The notes beneath the pieces were generated by a model. It was not told where the DNA came from. It did no database searches and saw nothing but the letters and a program-made list of their open reading frames with translations. This document shows positions 4,010 through 56,810 of a DNA stretch of 64,000 nt, piece after piece; positions within the stretch are counted from its first letter, which is position 1, and each line of letters begins with the position of its first letter. The translations under genes and the position numbers were made by a program. The stretch comes from Thuidium tamariscinum (lineage: Eukaryota; Streptophyta; Bryopsida; Hypnales; Thuidiaceae), in the NCBI GenBank assembly GCA_947034885.2, contig OX344751.2:8432001-8496000 (forward strand). The letters run 5' to 3'.

Positions 4010-4205
4010 AAAATCCACGTTGAAGGAAAGATGTGCCTCTGGATGTTTCCTATATACATCCACAATCAGAATTTAGAAAAAATCACTAGTAATGTTTTTC
4101 AATGAATCATGATATGAAACTATGAAAATTGAATGAAAAAAAATTCACTCAAATTGGAAATTCACTTTTTTTTTAAGTTGAAATTTGGTATGCATATATA
4201 TCCTA

Positions 4206-4734
4206 CTCCCTTCGTCCCAAAATGATCTTCTTGTTGCCTTTTGTGATATGAAAATTTGTCAAATTTGGATTTTAATTCTTATCCAAGACTAGCAAAACAA
4301 CTTTAAGCAATAATTTCCCTTCCATTCATAAAATCATCAATCAAAAGACAAAAGAAATAACTAAAGGGGTTAATCAACACTTTTTGTTTGTATTTTTTGC
4401 ATCTCTTTGAGTGTTGCCTACTTGAAGGAGGTGAAGCTTTGGTAGGTGGAACAAAGGTTCACATATGGTCTTAGGCCCATACTAATCACCCATAAAATAA
4501 CAACCTCAAATTCAAAATTTAAGTGCCTACTGGTGCTTTTTGAAAATGCCTCCAAAATTCTACTTTTCTATATTCTAAAATTACACTTTGGAAAAGGTTT
4601 TTAAAACTCAAAGTTTCAAAGATACTAAGAGTGCACCAAGCTTTGCTTACAAATCCAAAGGGGACTTTAAAATGTTATTTTTGGCCTTAATCCATAATAT
4701 TTTGTTAAACAAGAAGATCATTTTGGGACAGAGG
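4206..4734. mobile_element. Stowaway-like (Tc1/mariner) MITE
   Basis: The termini are CTCCCTTCGTCCCAAAATGA on the left and, as reverse complement, CCTCTGTCCCAAAATGATCT on the right, flanked by TA at 4204-4205 and 4735-4736. CTCCCTCCGTCCC-type ends with a TA target are the hallmark of plant Stowaway elements. No coding capacity is seen in the 529 bp. A second copy at 50519-51821, in inverted orientation, is interrupted by another transposon, so this copy serves as the uninterrupted reference. Confidence 0.75.
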
Positions 4735-5042
4735 TAATATTATATTTCATGAGAGTCCAAATATTAAGAAAAAGGCTATGAAAAGGTTTTTGCTCTATGG
4801 GTTTGAAAGAATTTTTTTTAATTAAGTGTATTTTGTGGCCCCTAGAGTACAATAGCTTCTCACTCTCGTAAACTTAAGTCTTATGCCCCGATTTCTTCAG
4901 TTATGAATGATATAAAGGAACTCTAGACAAACTTCTTTGGAGATAAGGTACATGATGAGAAAATGGATGCGGAAATGGAAGCACCAAAGTTCATCAAGAT
5001 GCTTTGTTGAAGCAATGAAGGGTTATGAAGCAAATGAAAGTT
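4735..5042. other. AT-rich spacer, nothing recognised
   Basis: The stretch between two inverted-repeat elements has only short open frames and no motif that I can name. Confidence 0.4.
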
Positions 5043-5401: not shown

Positions 5402-6416
5402 CCTAAAAGTCATCTTTTGTGTTTTCTTCCTTCTTTCAACCCTTAAATGACGGACTCATCACTGTAGAGGGAAGAGGGTTGTGACTAGTTTTAAAGGCAT
5501 TGCTAACCGTAGCAACAAATGTTGTTCTTGCCCTGTGAACAATATAAAGATAATGCAATAGAAAATTGCAGAAGTGAGCATTGCATGCTGCCGTCATGAA
5601 ATTTGCAAGGAGGGGCAATATAGGCCTAACACCGTCTTCTCCAAAACAAAAAAAATGAATGCTTGAATGCTGCCTCTTAAGTTATTGCCTTCCAAGACAA
5701 AGCAAGACTCCAAGCTCACATTTCAAAAAGAAATGGATGAAATGGCTCTTTATCATTCACCAAACGGGATTTTTTTGTCATTCATTAAATGCTCAATGTG
5801 TGTATTTGAAATTTTAACCTTGTAAGAATGGGCCATGACCGTTGATTACAAGCCTCAATTGCCATTGCTTTAATTGTTGCCATTATTACAGATGGAGTCA
5901 TATGTCTTTTACAAGTCATCAAAATTTCAAATTATTGTGAATTTTTTCAGAAAAAATAAAAAAATTCATATTAAATACAAAATATACTCACAAAATACAA
6001 AGTTTTCATTATAGATGTGTAGGGTAGAACATTAATAGTAAAAACCAAAGTTATCATGCCACTCTAAATTTAACCTTAAACCATGGTTATAGGCTTGTTG
6101 TTCATATTGCTATAAAATATTGAAATTTATTGGGGGTTTTAAATTTAAATTGTAGGAGAAAGATGAATGGATAAGCTTGATTTTATTTTTTTAAATCAAA
6201 ATTTTAAAAAACATTTTCATAGTTAAAATTTGTATCAAGAAAAAATAGTAAGAAATGGCCCAAATACACTACAACAATGATCTATGAATTGAGCATCTTC
6301 TCCTTAAAAAATTTAATAAGACTATGATGAGGGACTTTGCAATATTGTTCACTAAAAATGTATTCAAGTACCTTCTAAGTAAACAGATTGTATGAAAAAC
6401 ATTATTTTGCATTGTA
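5402..6416. other. AT-rich intergenic sequence
   Basis: No gene or structured repeat was recognised. Open frames are short and have no domain signature. Confidence 0.4.
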
Positions 6417-7807
6417 CAGTGGGGTACCAATCAAAATGTCGTTTTCGAATTCGCGGTGAGAAAAAATTTCAGTATTGCCAACTTTGAAACTCGAGAGCTC
6501 AAAAATTAGTATTTTACCACAAAAATTTTACCACATTATTATCTCTAAGTTAATTATATGCATGCCAAATTTCAAGGCCAAAAGATTCACCAAAAGAAAG
6601 TTATTCAAAATCTACCAACATGGGTAGTGGTGAGAAACATTTCACTACTTTCAACTGTGACACCTTTTTAAGGATTGAGTTTTTTTTCTTTTGCCATGAA
6701 ATTTTTGTCATGAAACAATATCTATGTTTTTAATACGTATAAAAAATTTCAAGGTAAGAAAAAAAATTTAAGAAGAAATTTGAAATCTCCCAACAGGTGT
6801 AGTTTTGAGAAAATTTTCACAATTGCCAACTTTGACACCCTCCCAAGGGCTGAAAAATTGGTTTCTTACCATGCATTTTTTTTGTGAAGTCATCTATATG
6901 TTGATAATATGTTCTCCAAATTTCAAGTTCAAATGAATTACCAAAGAAAAGATATACAAAATCTCCTAACATGTGTAGTTGTGAGAAAATTTTCACTATT
7001 GCTAACTTTGACACCCTCCCAAGGGCTGAAAATTTATTTATTTAACATGAATTTTTTTGAATAACATCAACTTTATGTTGATAATATATGTTCCAAATTT
7101 CAAGTTCAAAACACTTACCCAAAAAAAGATATTCAAAATCTCTCAACATGTGTAGTTGTGAGGTTGAATTTTTACATTCGTGTCAAACTTTGCTCCAAAA
7201 AATAACACTATACTAAGGGCTCAAAAACTCCTCCTCACAACTACACATGTTGGGAGATTTTGTATATCTTTCTTTTGGTAATTCATTTGAACTTGAAATT
7301 TGGAGAATATATTATCAACATATAGATGACTTCACAACAAAAAATTAATGGTAAAAAACCAATTTTTCAGCCCTTGGGAGGGTGTCAAAGTTGGCAATTG
7401 TGAAAATTTTCTCAAAACTACACCTGTTGGGAGATTTCAAATATATTCTTATAGAAATTTTTTTTACCATGAATTTTCTTACACATATTAAAAACATAAA
7501 TATTGTTTCATGAGAAAAATTTCATGGCAAAAGAAAAAAAACTCAATCCTTAGGCAGGTGTCAAAGTTGAAAGTAGTGAAATGTTTCTCACCACTATCCA
7601 TGTTGATAGATTTTGAATAACTTTTTTTTGGTGAATTTTTTGGCCTTTAAATTTGGTATGAATATAATTAACTTAGAGATAATCGTGTGGTAAAAATTTT
7701 GTGGTAAAATACCAATTTTTGAGCTCTTGAGAGGCTTTCAAAGTTGGCAATACTGAATTTTTTCTCACTACAAATTCGAAAACGACATTTTGATTGGTAC
7801 CCCACTG
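6417..7807. mobile_element. Modular foldback element, copy 1 (pogo/mariner-like ends)
   Basis: The element begins CAGTGGGGTACCAATCAAAA and ends with the complement of that sequence, with TA on both sides (6415-6416 and 7808-7809). CAGTGGGG-type ends plus a TA target fit pogo-type Tc1/mariner elements by general knowledge. The two long arms are complementary almost to the centre near 7200. Each arm is built from about four diverged modules spaced roughly 165-180 bp. Each module carries a GTAGTNGTGAG-type start and, in most, an AACTTTGACACC motif (near 6455, 6625, 6803, 6980 and 7155). No transposase frame is visible. A transcript would fold into a hairpin more than 600 bp long. Confidence 0.75.
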
Positions 7808-8329
7808 TACATTGCCAAATGAAGTCATCCATCAAGGACTAAGTGTCTTCAGTAGTATTACAAGGTTAAATTAACCCTAAAAAGTTCTTGAAGTGAACAG
7901 GTAGTAGGTAAGTGGTTGACTTACAAAGATTGCTATGAAAATGAAAAAATAGCTATTGATCTATAGATCAAATCATTTTTAACAAAGTACCTTGGTAACA
8001 GGTCTCATTGTTCTAAAATGAATCCTAAAAGATGCCACAAATACTAAGTGTCCAATTATGGATGACTCCATGTAAAATTGTAGAATAGAAAAAACAATGT
8101 TTTTTCATCCAATTTTTTTTTAGAAGTTGCCAGTGTACATTTTCAATGAATAGTCTTATAAATTCCTTCTTGACAAATATTATTAACTTTTCTAAAGAAA
8201 ATTGAGATGTTGAATCTATAAATCAACCTTTTTAGTGTATTTTTTCATTTCTTGCTATTTTCTCTTGAGTGAGATTTTGAGCCATAAAAATAATATTTCT
8301 TTAAATTGAGTCCAATTAATACCTAAAAA
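7808..8329. other. AT-rich intergenic sequence
   Basis: Nothing recognisable was found between the foldback element and the dispersed repeat that starts near 8330. Confidence 0.35.
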
Positions 8330-13790: not shown

Positions 13791-14775
13791 TGCACAAGTA
13801 ACAAGTAGCAGCATTTGCAAAGTTTTTGGAATTGTCCTAGTCATCTGCCTCCTCTTTGTAGAAGGAGTTGGGTTTTTATTCAAGGACATCAATAGCATTT
13901 TCTTCTTATCAAAACCTCCCTTTTTATTTCCTCAAGTATCAAATTTCCATTGACACTTTCCTTCACTTCAATTTTGCAAAGGCTACAATCCTATTGTTTA
14001 AAATGCATGTGAGTTTCCACATTAATCTCCAAATTTCATTACATCATGCAAGCAAATATGAACAATGGATCCGGAGTAGGGGTTAGCCACCATGACCAAC
14101 CCTAAAGTAATACCACCTCTACCCTATACAAGCACTCTAAGCCCCTCAACAACCAACTAAAAACAATATTCAATTTTTTCAAAGAACATATCTACCTCTA
14201 GCAACTCAAATATTAGCCTTGAATTTGAAATGGCAAGTGGTTAAAACCCAACCAATTCATGAAAGTAGTGGCTACATATCTACCTTTATATTATTTCACA
14301 CCACTTAGTTATCAGTCCTACCAATTTTTTTGGTCTAGTTTGGGACTAAAAGCAACCCAACTCTAAAAGCAACTTCTAACACAAATGTATGTTTTGCTTT
14401 CTTCAATGTACATATAAGACTTAGTGTCTGCTCATGTTGACCAGAGCATTCAAGAACAAGGTGTGGCTTGTGTGGACAGTTCATGCTGTGCAGTAAGCTT
14501 CGCCATTGGACTTTTGGGTAATGGCATTGGCATTATCAAGCCCCCTGCCAACTGAAGATTTCTCCTCTGAGGTATCCATCCATTGCATGAGCTATCAAAA
14601 TTTGAAATGGTTCTGTTTCATTTGTGTTAAATTTTTCTTAAGAAAATAAATGTGTTGCTGCTATAGGAGAGGTACCCATTAATAACACACACCCCATAAC
14701 AATAAATAAGATATCCCATTTCCAACCAAGATTGGAATGAATTTCCTTTTTTTCCTTGGAATGTGTGTCTCTGTA
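13791..14775. other. AT-rich intergenic sequence
   Basis: Short overlapping open frames only. A word near 14350-14410 (TAAAAGCAAC...AACACAAATGTAT) resembles 47285-47330 and probably derives from the same dispersed repeat family. Confidence 0.35.
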
Positions 14776-16028
14776 CAGTGGGGTACCAATCAAAATGTCA
14801 TTTTCGAATTCGCAGTGAGAAAAATTTCAGTATTGCCAACTTTGAAAGCCTCCTGAGAGCTCAAAAATTGATAATTTACCACGAAATTTTTACCACAACA
14901 TCAACTTTATGTTAATTATATGTGTGCCAAATTTCAAGCCCAAAAGATTCACCAAAAAAGAGTTATTCAAAACCTACCAACATGGGTAGTGGTGACAAAC
15001 ATTTCACTACTTTCAACTTTGACACCTTCTTAAGGATTGAGTTTTTTGCCATGAATTTTTTGTCATGAAACAATATCTATGTTTTTAATATGTGTAAAAA
15101 ATTTCAAGATAAGAAAAAAAAATTTTAAGAAGAAATTTGAAATCTCCCAACAAGTGTAGTTTTGAGAAAATTTTCACAATTGCCAACTTTGACACCCTCC
15201 CCCAAGGGCTAAAAAATTGGTTTCTTACCATTAATTTTTTTGTGAAGTCATCTATATGTTGATAATATGTTCTCCAAATTTCAAGTTCAAATGAATTACC
15301 AAAAAAAAGATATACAAAATCTCCCAACATGTGTAGTTGTGAGGAGGAGTTTTTGAGCCCTTAGTATAGTGTTATTTTGTGGAGAAAAGTTTGACACAAA
15401 TGTAAAAACTCAACCTCACAACTACACATGTTGAGAGATTTTGAATATCTTTTTTTGGGTAAGTGTTTTGAACTTGAAATTTGGAACATATATTATCAAC
15501 ATAAAGTTGATGTTATTCAAAAAAATTCATGTTAAATAAATAAATTTTCAGCCCTTGGGAGGGTGTCAAAGTCGGCAATAGTGAAAATTTTCTCACAACT
15601 ACACATGTTAAATTTCAAATCTCCCAACTACACATGTCAAATTTTTATTGGGAGATTTCAAATTTCTTCTTAAAATTTTTTTTCTTACCTTGAAATTTTT
15701 TATACATATTAAAAACATAGATATTGTTTCATGACAAAAATTTCATGGCAAAAGAAAAAAAAGTCAATCCTTAAAAAGGTGTCAAAGTTGAAAGTAGTGA
15801 AATGTTTCTCACCACTACCCATGTTGGTAGATTTTGAATAACTTTTTTTTGGTGAATTTTTTGGCCTTGAAATTTTTCATACATATAATTAACATAAATA
15901 TGATGATTTGGTAAAAATTTTGTTGTAAAATACTAATTTTTGAGCTCTCGGGAGGCTTTCAAAGTTGGCAATACTGAAATTTTTTCTTACTGCGAATTCA
16001 AAAATGGCATTTGATTGGTACCCCATTG
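14776..16028. mobile_element. Modular foldback element, copy 2
   Basis: It has the same termini as the element at 6417-7807: CAGTGGGGTACCAATCAAAA at the left and its near-complement ending CCCCATTG at the right (one base changed), flanked by TA at 14774-14775 and 16029-16030. The arms show the same internal modules. The unpaired centre (15340-15415) is the reverse complement of the centre of copy 1, so the two insertions lie in opposite orientations. A local duplication containing CAACTACACATGT occurs at about 15595-15640. No transposase frame. Confidence 0.75.
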
Positions 16029-50518: not shown

Positions 50519-51821
50519 CTACCCCCATCCCAAAATGATCTTCATGTTTAACAAAATATTATGGATTAAGGCCAAAAATAACATTTTAAAGTCCCCTTTG
50601 GATTTGTAAGCAAAGTTTGGTTCACTCTTAGTATCTTTGAAACTTTGAGTTTTAAAAACCTTTTCCAAAGTGTAATTTTAGAATATAGAAAAGTAGAATT
50701 TTCGAGGCATTTTCAAAAAGCACCAATAGGCACTTAAATTTTGAATTTGAAGTTGTTATTTTGTGGGTGAGGGTCATTGCAAGAAACACCAGTCCTATTT
50801 CATGTCACAATTTGAACCACTTTTTTGTTGTCTACAATAACTTTTGGAGATTAAGTCCAATGAAAATGAAATTTTTATTGAACATACCTAACTTGAAGTT
50901 TATTAGATCCCTTATTTTTCAGAAATTAAAAAAAATCATTTTATATTTTAAAAACATTTTCGTTGAGCGTCACAAAATTACGTTTATGGTTATCATTACG
51001 TTCGCAGTGTCTAAATTTAATGATTTGATGACGAAACTTTCATGGTCTATTTGCATAGGTGTAAAACCTACAAATTCCAAAAAAAAAATTTTAAATATGT
51101 TTTTTTATGTCCTCCACATGAGTACAAATTTTTTTTTTTGGCACGCAATTTTTGAACAATGGTAATGGTTCTAAGATCGAACTTTTGGTCAAATCTCATC
51201 AAAATCAACTTTCCTCAAATGGCCAATTTTTAGTTTTCCTTAAAACTGATTTTCCTATTTTTTACAAATTAAAATGTCGAAGTACTAATTTTCATGAGAT
51301 TTTGCACTTTTCTGGATTTCCTACTTAGAGATTTTTCCTATGCTTTTCCTTTCTAGGGTATATTCTTCTTAAAGGTTTATACATGAAACATATTTTTCAC
51401 TTTTTTAAAAACTTGTTTTTCTAATTTTAAAGTACTCCCGAAAAAAAAAGACTACGTTGCAAAACGCTACGCTTTTTGGTAGGTGTTTCTTGCAACGACC
51501 CGTGATTAGTGTGGGCCTAAGACCATGTGTGAACCTTTGTTCCACCTACCAAAGCTTCACCTCCTTCAAGTAGGCAACACTCAAAGAGACGCAAAAAATA
51601 CAAACAAAAAGTGTTGATTAACCCCTTTAGTCATTTCTTTTATCTTTTCATTGATGATTTTATGAATGGAAGGGAAATTATTACTTAAAGTTGTTTTGCT
51701 AGTCTTGGACAAGAATTAAAATCCAAATTTGACAAATTTTCATATCACAAAAGGCAACAAGAAGATCATTTGGGGACAAAAAATTAAGGCCAACAGGAAG
51801 ATCATTTTGGGACTGAGGGAG
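50519..51821. mobile_element. Stowaway-like MITE, inverted copy, interrupted by another transposon
   Basis: The left end CTACCCCCATCCCAAAATGA faces the right end, as complement, CTCCCTCAGTCCCAAAATGA, with TA at 50517-50518 and 51822-51823. Outside the nested insertion it is the reverse complement of 4206-4734 over its whole length. The right terminus is partly duplicated in tandem, with AGAAGATCATTTGGGGAC and then GGAAGATCATTTTGGGAC. It is split at 50770/51502 by a 731-bp element. Confidence 0.8.
50771..51501. mobile_element. TIR transposon with 4-bp target duplication GTGA, nested
   Basis: GGGTCATTGCAAGAAACACC at the left and its complement with one change, GGTGTTTCTTGCAACGACCC, at the right. 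GTGA stands at 50767-50770 and again at 51502-51505. The uninterrupted relative at 4206-4734 reads, as complement, TTATGGGTGATTAGT with a single GTGA, so the 4-bp duplication is directly supported. The 731-bp interior is not palindromic. A 134-codon frame (50761-51165) begins without ATG outside the element and is unlikely to be coding. A Sola2-type assignment (4-bp duplications) is one possibility from memory of that superfamily; it is not demonstrated. Confidence 0.8.
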
Positions 51822-55805: not shown

Positions 55806-55874
55806 GATATCACTAATTTTTAACCCCTAAAGAACCACTTGTCTCTTTGGGGGACAAGTTAGATTTCCATTTTT

Positions 55875-56806
55875 GGGTCATTGCAAGAAACACCGACCAC
55901 TTTTGTAGCACTTTGCAAAATTTGTTCTTGTCCAATGCTATAACTTTTGATTGATGAATCCATTTCCCAAACCAAAAAAATAATTCCTAGAATTTTTTAT
56001 TGCAATCATATTATATATTTTTCAAAAAAATTTAAAAATCATTTTATATTTAAAAGTTATTTTTGTTAATTTGTCACATTTTCAAGATTAGATTTTTCTT
56101 TTACTATTGATTGGTTTAAATTAATGATTTTTGGTTGAAATTTTTGTGGTATGTTTTTATAGTAGGTAGACATGTCCCTACCAAAGGACATCTAAAAAAA
56201 GATTATTTTATGACCTCTACATTAGTGCAAACAGACCTCCCTTGCACGCATACTTCAAAACATTAGAAATGGTTTTGAACTCATTTTCTTAGTCAAACCT
56301 CATCACCAAAAAGTCTTCTCAAATGGCCAATTTTGAACAAAACTAAAAATTGGCCATTTGAGAAGACTTTTTGGTGATGAGGTTTGACTAAGAAAATGAA
56401 TTCAAAACCATTTCTAATGTTTTGAAGTGTGCGTGCAAAAGAAGTCTGTTTGCACTAATATAGAGGTTATAAAATAATCTTTTTTTAGATGTCCTTTGGT
56501 AGGGACATGTCTACCTACTATAAAAACATACCAAAAAAATTTCAACCAAAAATCATTAATTTAAACCAATCAATAGTAAAAGAAAAGTCTAATCTTGAAA
56601 GTGTGACAAATTAACAAAAATAACTTTTAAATATAAAATGATTTTTAAATTTTTTTTGAAAAATATATAATATGATTGCAATAAAAAATTCTAGGAATAG
56701 TTTTTTTGGTTTGGGCAATGGATTCATCAATCAAAAATTATAACATTGGACAAGAACAAATTTTGCAAAGTGCTACGAAAGTGGTCGGTGTTTCTTGCAA
56801 TGACCC
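55875..56806. mobile_element. 932-bp near-perfect palindrome, same TIR family as 50771-51501, TSD TTTT
   Basis: The ends are GGGTCATTGCAAGAAACACC and its exact complement, with TTTT at 55871-55874 and 56807-56810, again a 4-bp duplication. The arms (about 55875-56330 and 56348-56806) are complementary over nearly their full length with few differences, leaving a spacer of about 15-20 bp near 56340. Arm sequence is related to the left part of 50771-51501 (for example AATCATTTTATATTT). No coding frame. A transcript across it would be an almost unbroken double-stranded RNA of about 455 bp. Confidence 0.85.
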
Positions 56807-56810
56807 TTTT

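Follow-up and report, generated by a model that had tools for sequence, protein, structure and literature searches.

Two related elements and an empty site

The window, a 64,000-nucleotide stretch of DNA, contains two elements, e1 and e2, that belong to one family (Table 1). When the 20-bp end sequence of this family was searched for with up to 3 mismatches allowed, 4 matches were found in the window, which are exactly the four ends of e1 and e2 (0.01 expected).

Element e1 is an insertion within another repeat, which from its CTCCCTTCGTCCCAAAAT start looks Stowaway-like. The first-pass annotation had claimed that a relative of this host repeat reads through the insertion site with one GTGA, and this was borne out: when the flanks of e1, joined through one GTGA, were compared with the reverse complement of 4190-4760 by alignment, 528 of the 557 bases were identical and the junction was ungapped. 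The same annotation had placed the element at 50767-51505. The element at this position is real, but the span takes in both GTGA duplications, and e1 proper is limited to 50771-51501. In e1 the longest reading frame, of 134 aa, begins 10 bases ahead of the element; it had no match to a Pfam family, and neither did a similar frame of 145 aa in another copy.

Element e2 consists almost entirely of an inverted repeat, and is predicted to fold into a single hairpin (-483 kcal/mol, z -58). The TTTT flanks that had been reported for this second member were found in the sequence at both ends. Among its stop-to-stop frames of at least 50 aa, none was longer than 57 aa. The foldback type matches e1 with about 66-67% identity over e1 positions 143-478 and with 75% over the first 76 bp of e1; it looks like an inverted duplication of the first end of e1.

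A cluster of long inverted repeats was also observed in the window, at 6390-7830 and 14770-15985. Its arms measure up to 376 bp, are 98% complementary and lie about 8 kb apart, and may be the termini of a large element. The inverted arms at 6492-6769 and 15673-15950 were considered as members of the e1/e2 family and rejected, as their similarity to it was weak.

Table 1. Features of e1, e2 and the uninterrupted relative of the e1 host repeat (window positions)
Feature	Position	Strand	Basis
Element e1, probable non-autonomous transposon, 731 bp	50771..51501	+	sequence, end matches, duplication analysis
e1 left target duplication, GTGA	50767..50770	.	sequence; single GTGA in uninterrupted relative
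e1 left terminal inverted repeat, GGGTCATTGCAAGAAACACC, 20 bp	50771..50790	+	end matches
e1 right terminal inverted repeat, GGGTCGTTGCAAGAAACACC (read inward), one mismatch to left	51482..51501	-	end matches
e1 right target duplication, GTGA	51502..51505	.	sequence
Uninterrupted relative of e1 host repeat	4206..4734	-	alignment
Empty site TCAC (GTGA on the other strand) in the relative	4486-4489		
Element e2, foldback member, 932 bp, ~460-bp arms	55875..56806	+	sequence, folding
e2 arms	about 55875-56334 and 56346-56806		
e2 left target duplication, TTTT	55871..55874	.	sequence
e2 right target duplication, TTTT	56807..56810	.	sequence

End sequences and subfamilies across the genome

Ends were counted in the complete 363-Mb assembly (19 contigs), with the reversed patterns serving as a control. 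In this search, which the first-pass annotation had proposed for the 20-bp terminus, the exact 20-mer occurred 1347 times (668 + 679) and the end variant GGGTGATTGCAAGAAAGACC 145 + 158 times. A relaxed end, GGGTSRTTGCAAGAAASACC, which covers both of these, was found 3518 times (1749 + 1769). Each of the three reversed controls gave 0 occurrences. The family ends had no match in viral contigs (pattern search) or in plasmids (blastn). A 2-oxoglutarate dioxygenase gene with a DIOX_N domain was recognised as well; this gene and the types of repeat present point to a land plant as the probable source.

The complete copies from the first of the pairing analyses described below were mostly 0.39-1.1 kb long. 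Two longer pairings, of 1467 bp and 1818 bp, contained nested copies, and family copies inserted within one another were found at loci L004 and L012. At least four subfamilies of ~730 bp have 20-bp ends that are nearly alike: the e1 type (731-733 bp), a subfamily with about 81-82% identity to e1 (714-735 bp; L016, L017, L019, L021), a CCTG-ended subfamily that is 70-72% identical to e1 over the right ~290 bp (734-738 bp; L007b, L018, L022, L023), and a GAAAGACC-ended subfamily that is 70-71% identical to e1 (729-732 bp; L010b, L012in). As these diverged subfamilies have kept the same length and ends, their sequences suggest that the family amplified in several bursts over a long time. Eight e1-type copies differed by 1.5% on average, a value that is biased low by their being drawn from the best matches. 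One locus carries a 389-bp copy derived from the e1 type by internal deletion (L015:136-524) and flanked by TCCC duplications, suggesting that shortened copies still moved. In structure, the members of the family are MITEs: short, gene-less, present in many copies and bounded by inverted ends.

Length of the target duplication

The flanks of paired ends were compared in two analyses. The first covered the fetched genome loci and the window, and favoured a partner with a 4-bp match where several were possible. Of its 31 distinct end pairings, 24 showed a duplication of exactly 4 bp, none showed a longer one (up to 11 bp were tried) and 7 were without; shuffled flanks gave a mean of 1.08 and a maximum of 5. 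The second applied no such preference and included loci L059 and L060, yielding 35 left ends for which a partner was possible; at 8 of these there was more than one. When only the nearest partner was taken, the longest match was 4 bp at 24 of the 35 ends, 3 bp at 1, 2 bp at 2, 1 bp at 3 and 0 bp at 5. When any partner was allowed, a perfect 4-bp duplication was present at 26/35 ends and a duplication of 5-10 bp at 0/35, while a shuffled control with equal freedom reached a mean of 1.6 and a maximum of 8.

The remaining 9 left ends had no perfect 4-bp partner. For three of them (L003 999, L005 863 and L019 16), the sole partner fits another end better. The flanks differ by one base at L010 4407, L017 and L020, read AAGG/AGGG at L060 5817, and differ by more than one base at L013 and the decayed L059 1450.

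The 24 perfect duplications of the first analysis comprise 22 different sequences, none of which is TTAA. A and T make up 71 of their 96 bases, in a window that is itself AT-rich (GC 0.345). The consistent, non-TTAA duplication of 4 bp that had been proposed from two elements was supported in the wider family, and a predominance of 8-9-bp, 3-bp or TTAA duplications, named beforehand as the outcome contrary to that proposal, did not occur among the 35 left ends.

Search for a transposase-bearing copy

No autonomous, transposase-bearing copy of the family was found in the loci and end pairs examined. For PIF/Harbinger (PF13359, DDE_Tnp_4), 30 of the best 150 matches were examined with 1.5-kb flanks; two weak end matches were detected at the 5-mismatch limit, and none nearer, within that distance. 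For MULE transposases (PF10551), which had 33 matches genome-wide, 30 loci were examined in the same way, and the family end was absent at fewer than 6 mismatches, the sole matches having 6. Both results apply to these 1.5-kb flanks only: in one MULE family and one PIF family, identity of 98-99.9% extends through all of the 3.3-3.5 kb retrieved, which places the true ends of these families beyond the flanks.

Proximity was assessed for 25 transposase matches in the region C1:0-22.3 Mb (13 PIF, 1 MULE, 4 DUF7869 and 7 hAT), taken from at most the best 150 matches of each family; for the hAT dimerisation domain, these were the best 150 of 714 candidates scored. None lay within 10 kb of the 170 listed ends, which were relaxed ends up to C1:9.1 Mb and two exact variants beyond that point. 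With the 25 matches placed at random, a mean of 3.5 fell near ends, and none did so in 2.5% of trials.

Several candidate partners were rejected individually. Decayed PIF-like genes near C1:4.32 Mb are surrounded by ends that belong to separate short or truncated copies. The MULE family represented by L063 carries an end-like motif, GGGTTAAGTGTAGAAAGCACA, but six aligned copies remain identical beyond it, so the motif is internal to the MULE element. In one copy of that family (C2), the sequence diverges near AAACTTGCCA, an end that resembles a Mu end read inward. DUF7869 (PF25273), which might be Sola-related, was set aside with 0 of its 4 matches in C1:0-22.3 Mb within 10 kb of a listed end, and in the stretches flanking one DUF7869 copy the family end was absent at fewer than 6 mismatches. 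hAT was likewise set aside, with 0 of 7 matches in the same region and distance. Two long end pairs among the ends listed (the first 100 places per variant) were retrieved, and each turned out to consist of separate copies. Three further candidate long pairs, each of which may consist of two unrelated neighbours, are C1:1798952-1810735 (11.8 kb) and, with the relaxed pattern, C1:7969723-7974767 (5045 bp) and C1:2008810-2011567 (2758 bp).

Other mobile elements in the genome

A number of other mobile elements were noticed during these searches. Proteins with DUF7869 are hugely amplified: the best 150 of 853 candidates were scored, all of them strong, with open frames of up to 1076 aa (for example C1:23373141-23373719, L103 and L104). 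Contig C11 held 47 of the 150 scored matches, the highest position seen being 17.4 Mb. These proteins look like the genes of an abundant mobile element.

The MULE family L063-L069 (C5:9103256 and others) comprises seven copies with 98-99.8% identity throughout the 3.3 kb retrieved; one copy has long inverted subterminal arms, and the family was probably active recently. Eight copies sharing 98-99.9% identity across 3.5 kb make up a PIF/Harbinger family (L048-L055; C2:1576336 and others), which has a stop-free transposase frame of 458 aa. hAT-type matches were present on many contigs; many of them share one score and lie in open frames of 1061 or 1118 aa, and these probably represent two recently amplified hAT families.

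Proposed mechanism and affiliation

With its shared inverted ends, 4-bp duplications, one empty site, high end count and several diverged subfamilies, the family is best explained as a group of non-autonomous cut-and-paste DNA transposons, of MITE and foldback form, whose transposase is encoded elsewhere and acts in trans; we assign this reading a probability of roughly 0.9. Counting against it, no autonomous partner was found in the loci and end pairs examined, and 9 of the 35 left ends lack a perfect 4-bp partner. We infer a DDE-type enzyme, mobilisation in trans and a 4-bp stagger. The transposase would most likely recognise ends of the form GGGT(C/G)(A/G)TTGCAAGAAA(C/G)ACC, cut the element out, and join it to a target whose two strands are cut with a 4-bp offset; repair of the gaps would then leave the 4-bp duplication.

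The duplications and ends were compared with those of known superfamilies. hAT elements duplicate 8 bp, a length seen at none of the 35 ends, and PIF/Harbinger elements duplicate 3 bp of the TWA type, while a longest match of 3 bp occurred in only 1/35 nearest pairings. GGG ends and long inverted arms are frequent among plant MULEs, whose duplications are 8-11 bp long, usually 9. A Mutator-like derivative with an unusual duplication length would account for the GGG start and the foldback form found here, and the genome does encode MULE transposases (33 matches). Against this origin, duplications of 5-10 bp were seen at 0/35 ends and no duplication longer than 4 bp in 31 pairings with up to 11 bp tried, the 30 MULE loci with their 1.5-kb flanks gave end matches only at 6 mismatches, and the one MULE family with an end-like motif was dismissed by six copies identical beyond it. 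We consider a MULE origin unlikely. Among other superfamilies with duplications of about 4 bp, which share that length with the present family, piggyBac targets TTAA, in contrast to the varied duplications found here (0/24 perfect duplications being TTAA), and Chapaev ends start with CAC rather than GGGT. Ginger termini, given as TGTNR (PMC2836005), differ from GGGT as well. Membership of Ginger, Chapaev, piggyBac or Academ appears very improbable. Tc1/mariner elements duplicate the 2-bp TA according to a plant transposon guide (PMC10741241), unlike the 4-bp duplications of this family. None of the five common plant superfamilies accommodates 4-bp duplications together with GGGT ends, and the misfit that the first-pass annotation had asserted is upheld by target size.

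A tentative but reasonable possibility, raised for Sola2 in the first-pass annotation, is that these elements are members of the Sola superfamily (Sola1 or Sola2), with a Sola transposase moving them. The plant transposon guide, which counts seven plant superfamilies with inverted ends, describes Sola as having 4-bp duplications, as having inverted ends that span 11-1124 bp, as present in the moss Physcomitrella and as seemingly uncommon in flowering plants (PMC10741241). Sola2-type elements with Fanzor are described as having AT-rich 4-bp duplications (PMC3627910), which the 71/96 A/T bases counted here resemble, though in an AT-rich setting (GC 0.345). Speaking against Sola, no Sola-type DDD transposase was identified, and no coding copy was recovered in the loci examined. 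Somewhat doubtful, in our view, is the alternative that these elements are the non-autonomous side of an undescribed plant DNA transposon superfamily, with GGGTSRTTGCAAGAAASACC ends, a varied 4-bp duplication and a transposase lineage of its own that would have kept ~730-bp derivatives moving in several bursts. Among the titles and abstract openings listed for 4-bp duplications with plants and MITEs in an open-licence library, none dealt with this family, which is no proof of absence in print, and pieces of the end sequence led there to two papers, neither about transposons judging by title and abstract.

Comparison with known systems

The family has much in common with plant MITEs such as Stowaway and Tourist and with foldback elements: it is short, AT-rich, gene-less and present in many copies, with inverted ends and a hairpin form. 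Its duplication sets it apart, being 4 bp of varied sequence here versus TA, 3, 8 or 9 bp in plant MITEs. Long-armed Mutator-like elements share the GGG start and the long arms, while their duplications are ~9 bp long. Across 207 plant genomes, a MITE survey distinguishes five superfamilies and one special group (PMC12550479). The 3518 end matches of the present family cannot be placed by the usual plant duplication sizes, and as such mark a gap in the assignment of plant MITEs. Identification of the partner transposase would either add to Sola as a lineage active in plants or establish a new group. Sola and the present family share duplications of 4 bp, and the inverted ends of 20 bp in e1 and ~460 bp in e2 fall within the 11-1124 bp of Sola. 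Judged by described duplication size and end lengths, Sola is the best named candidate for this family.
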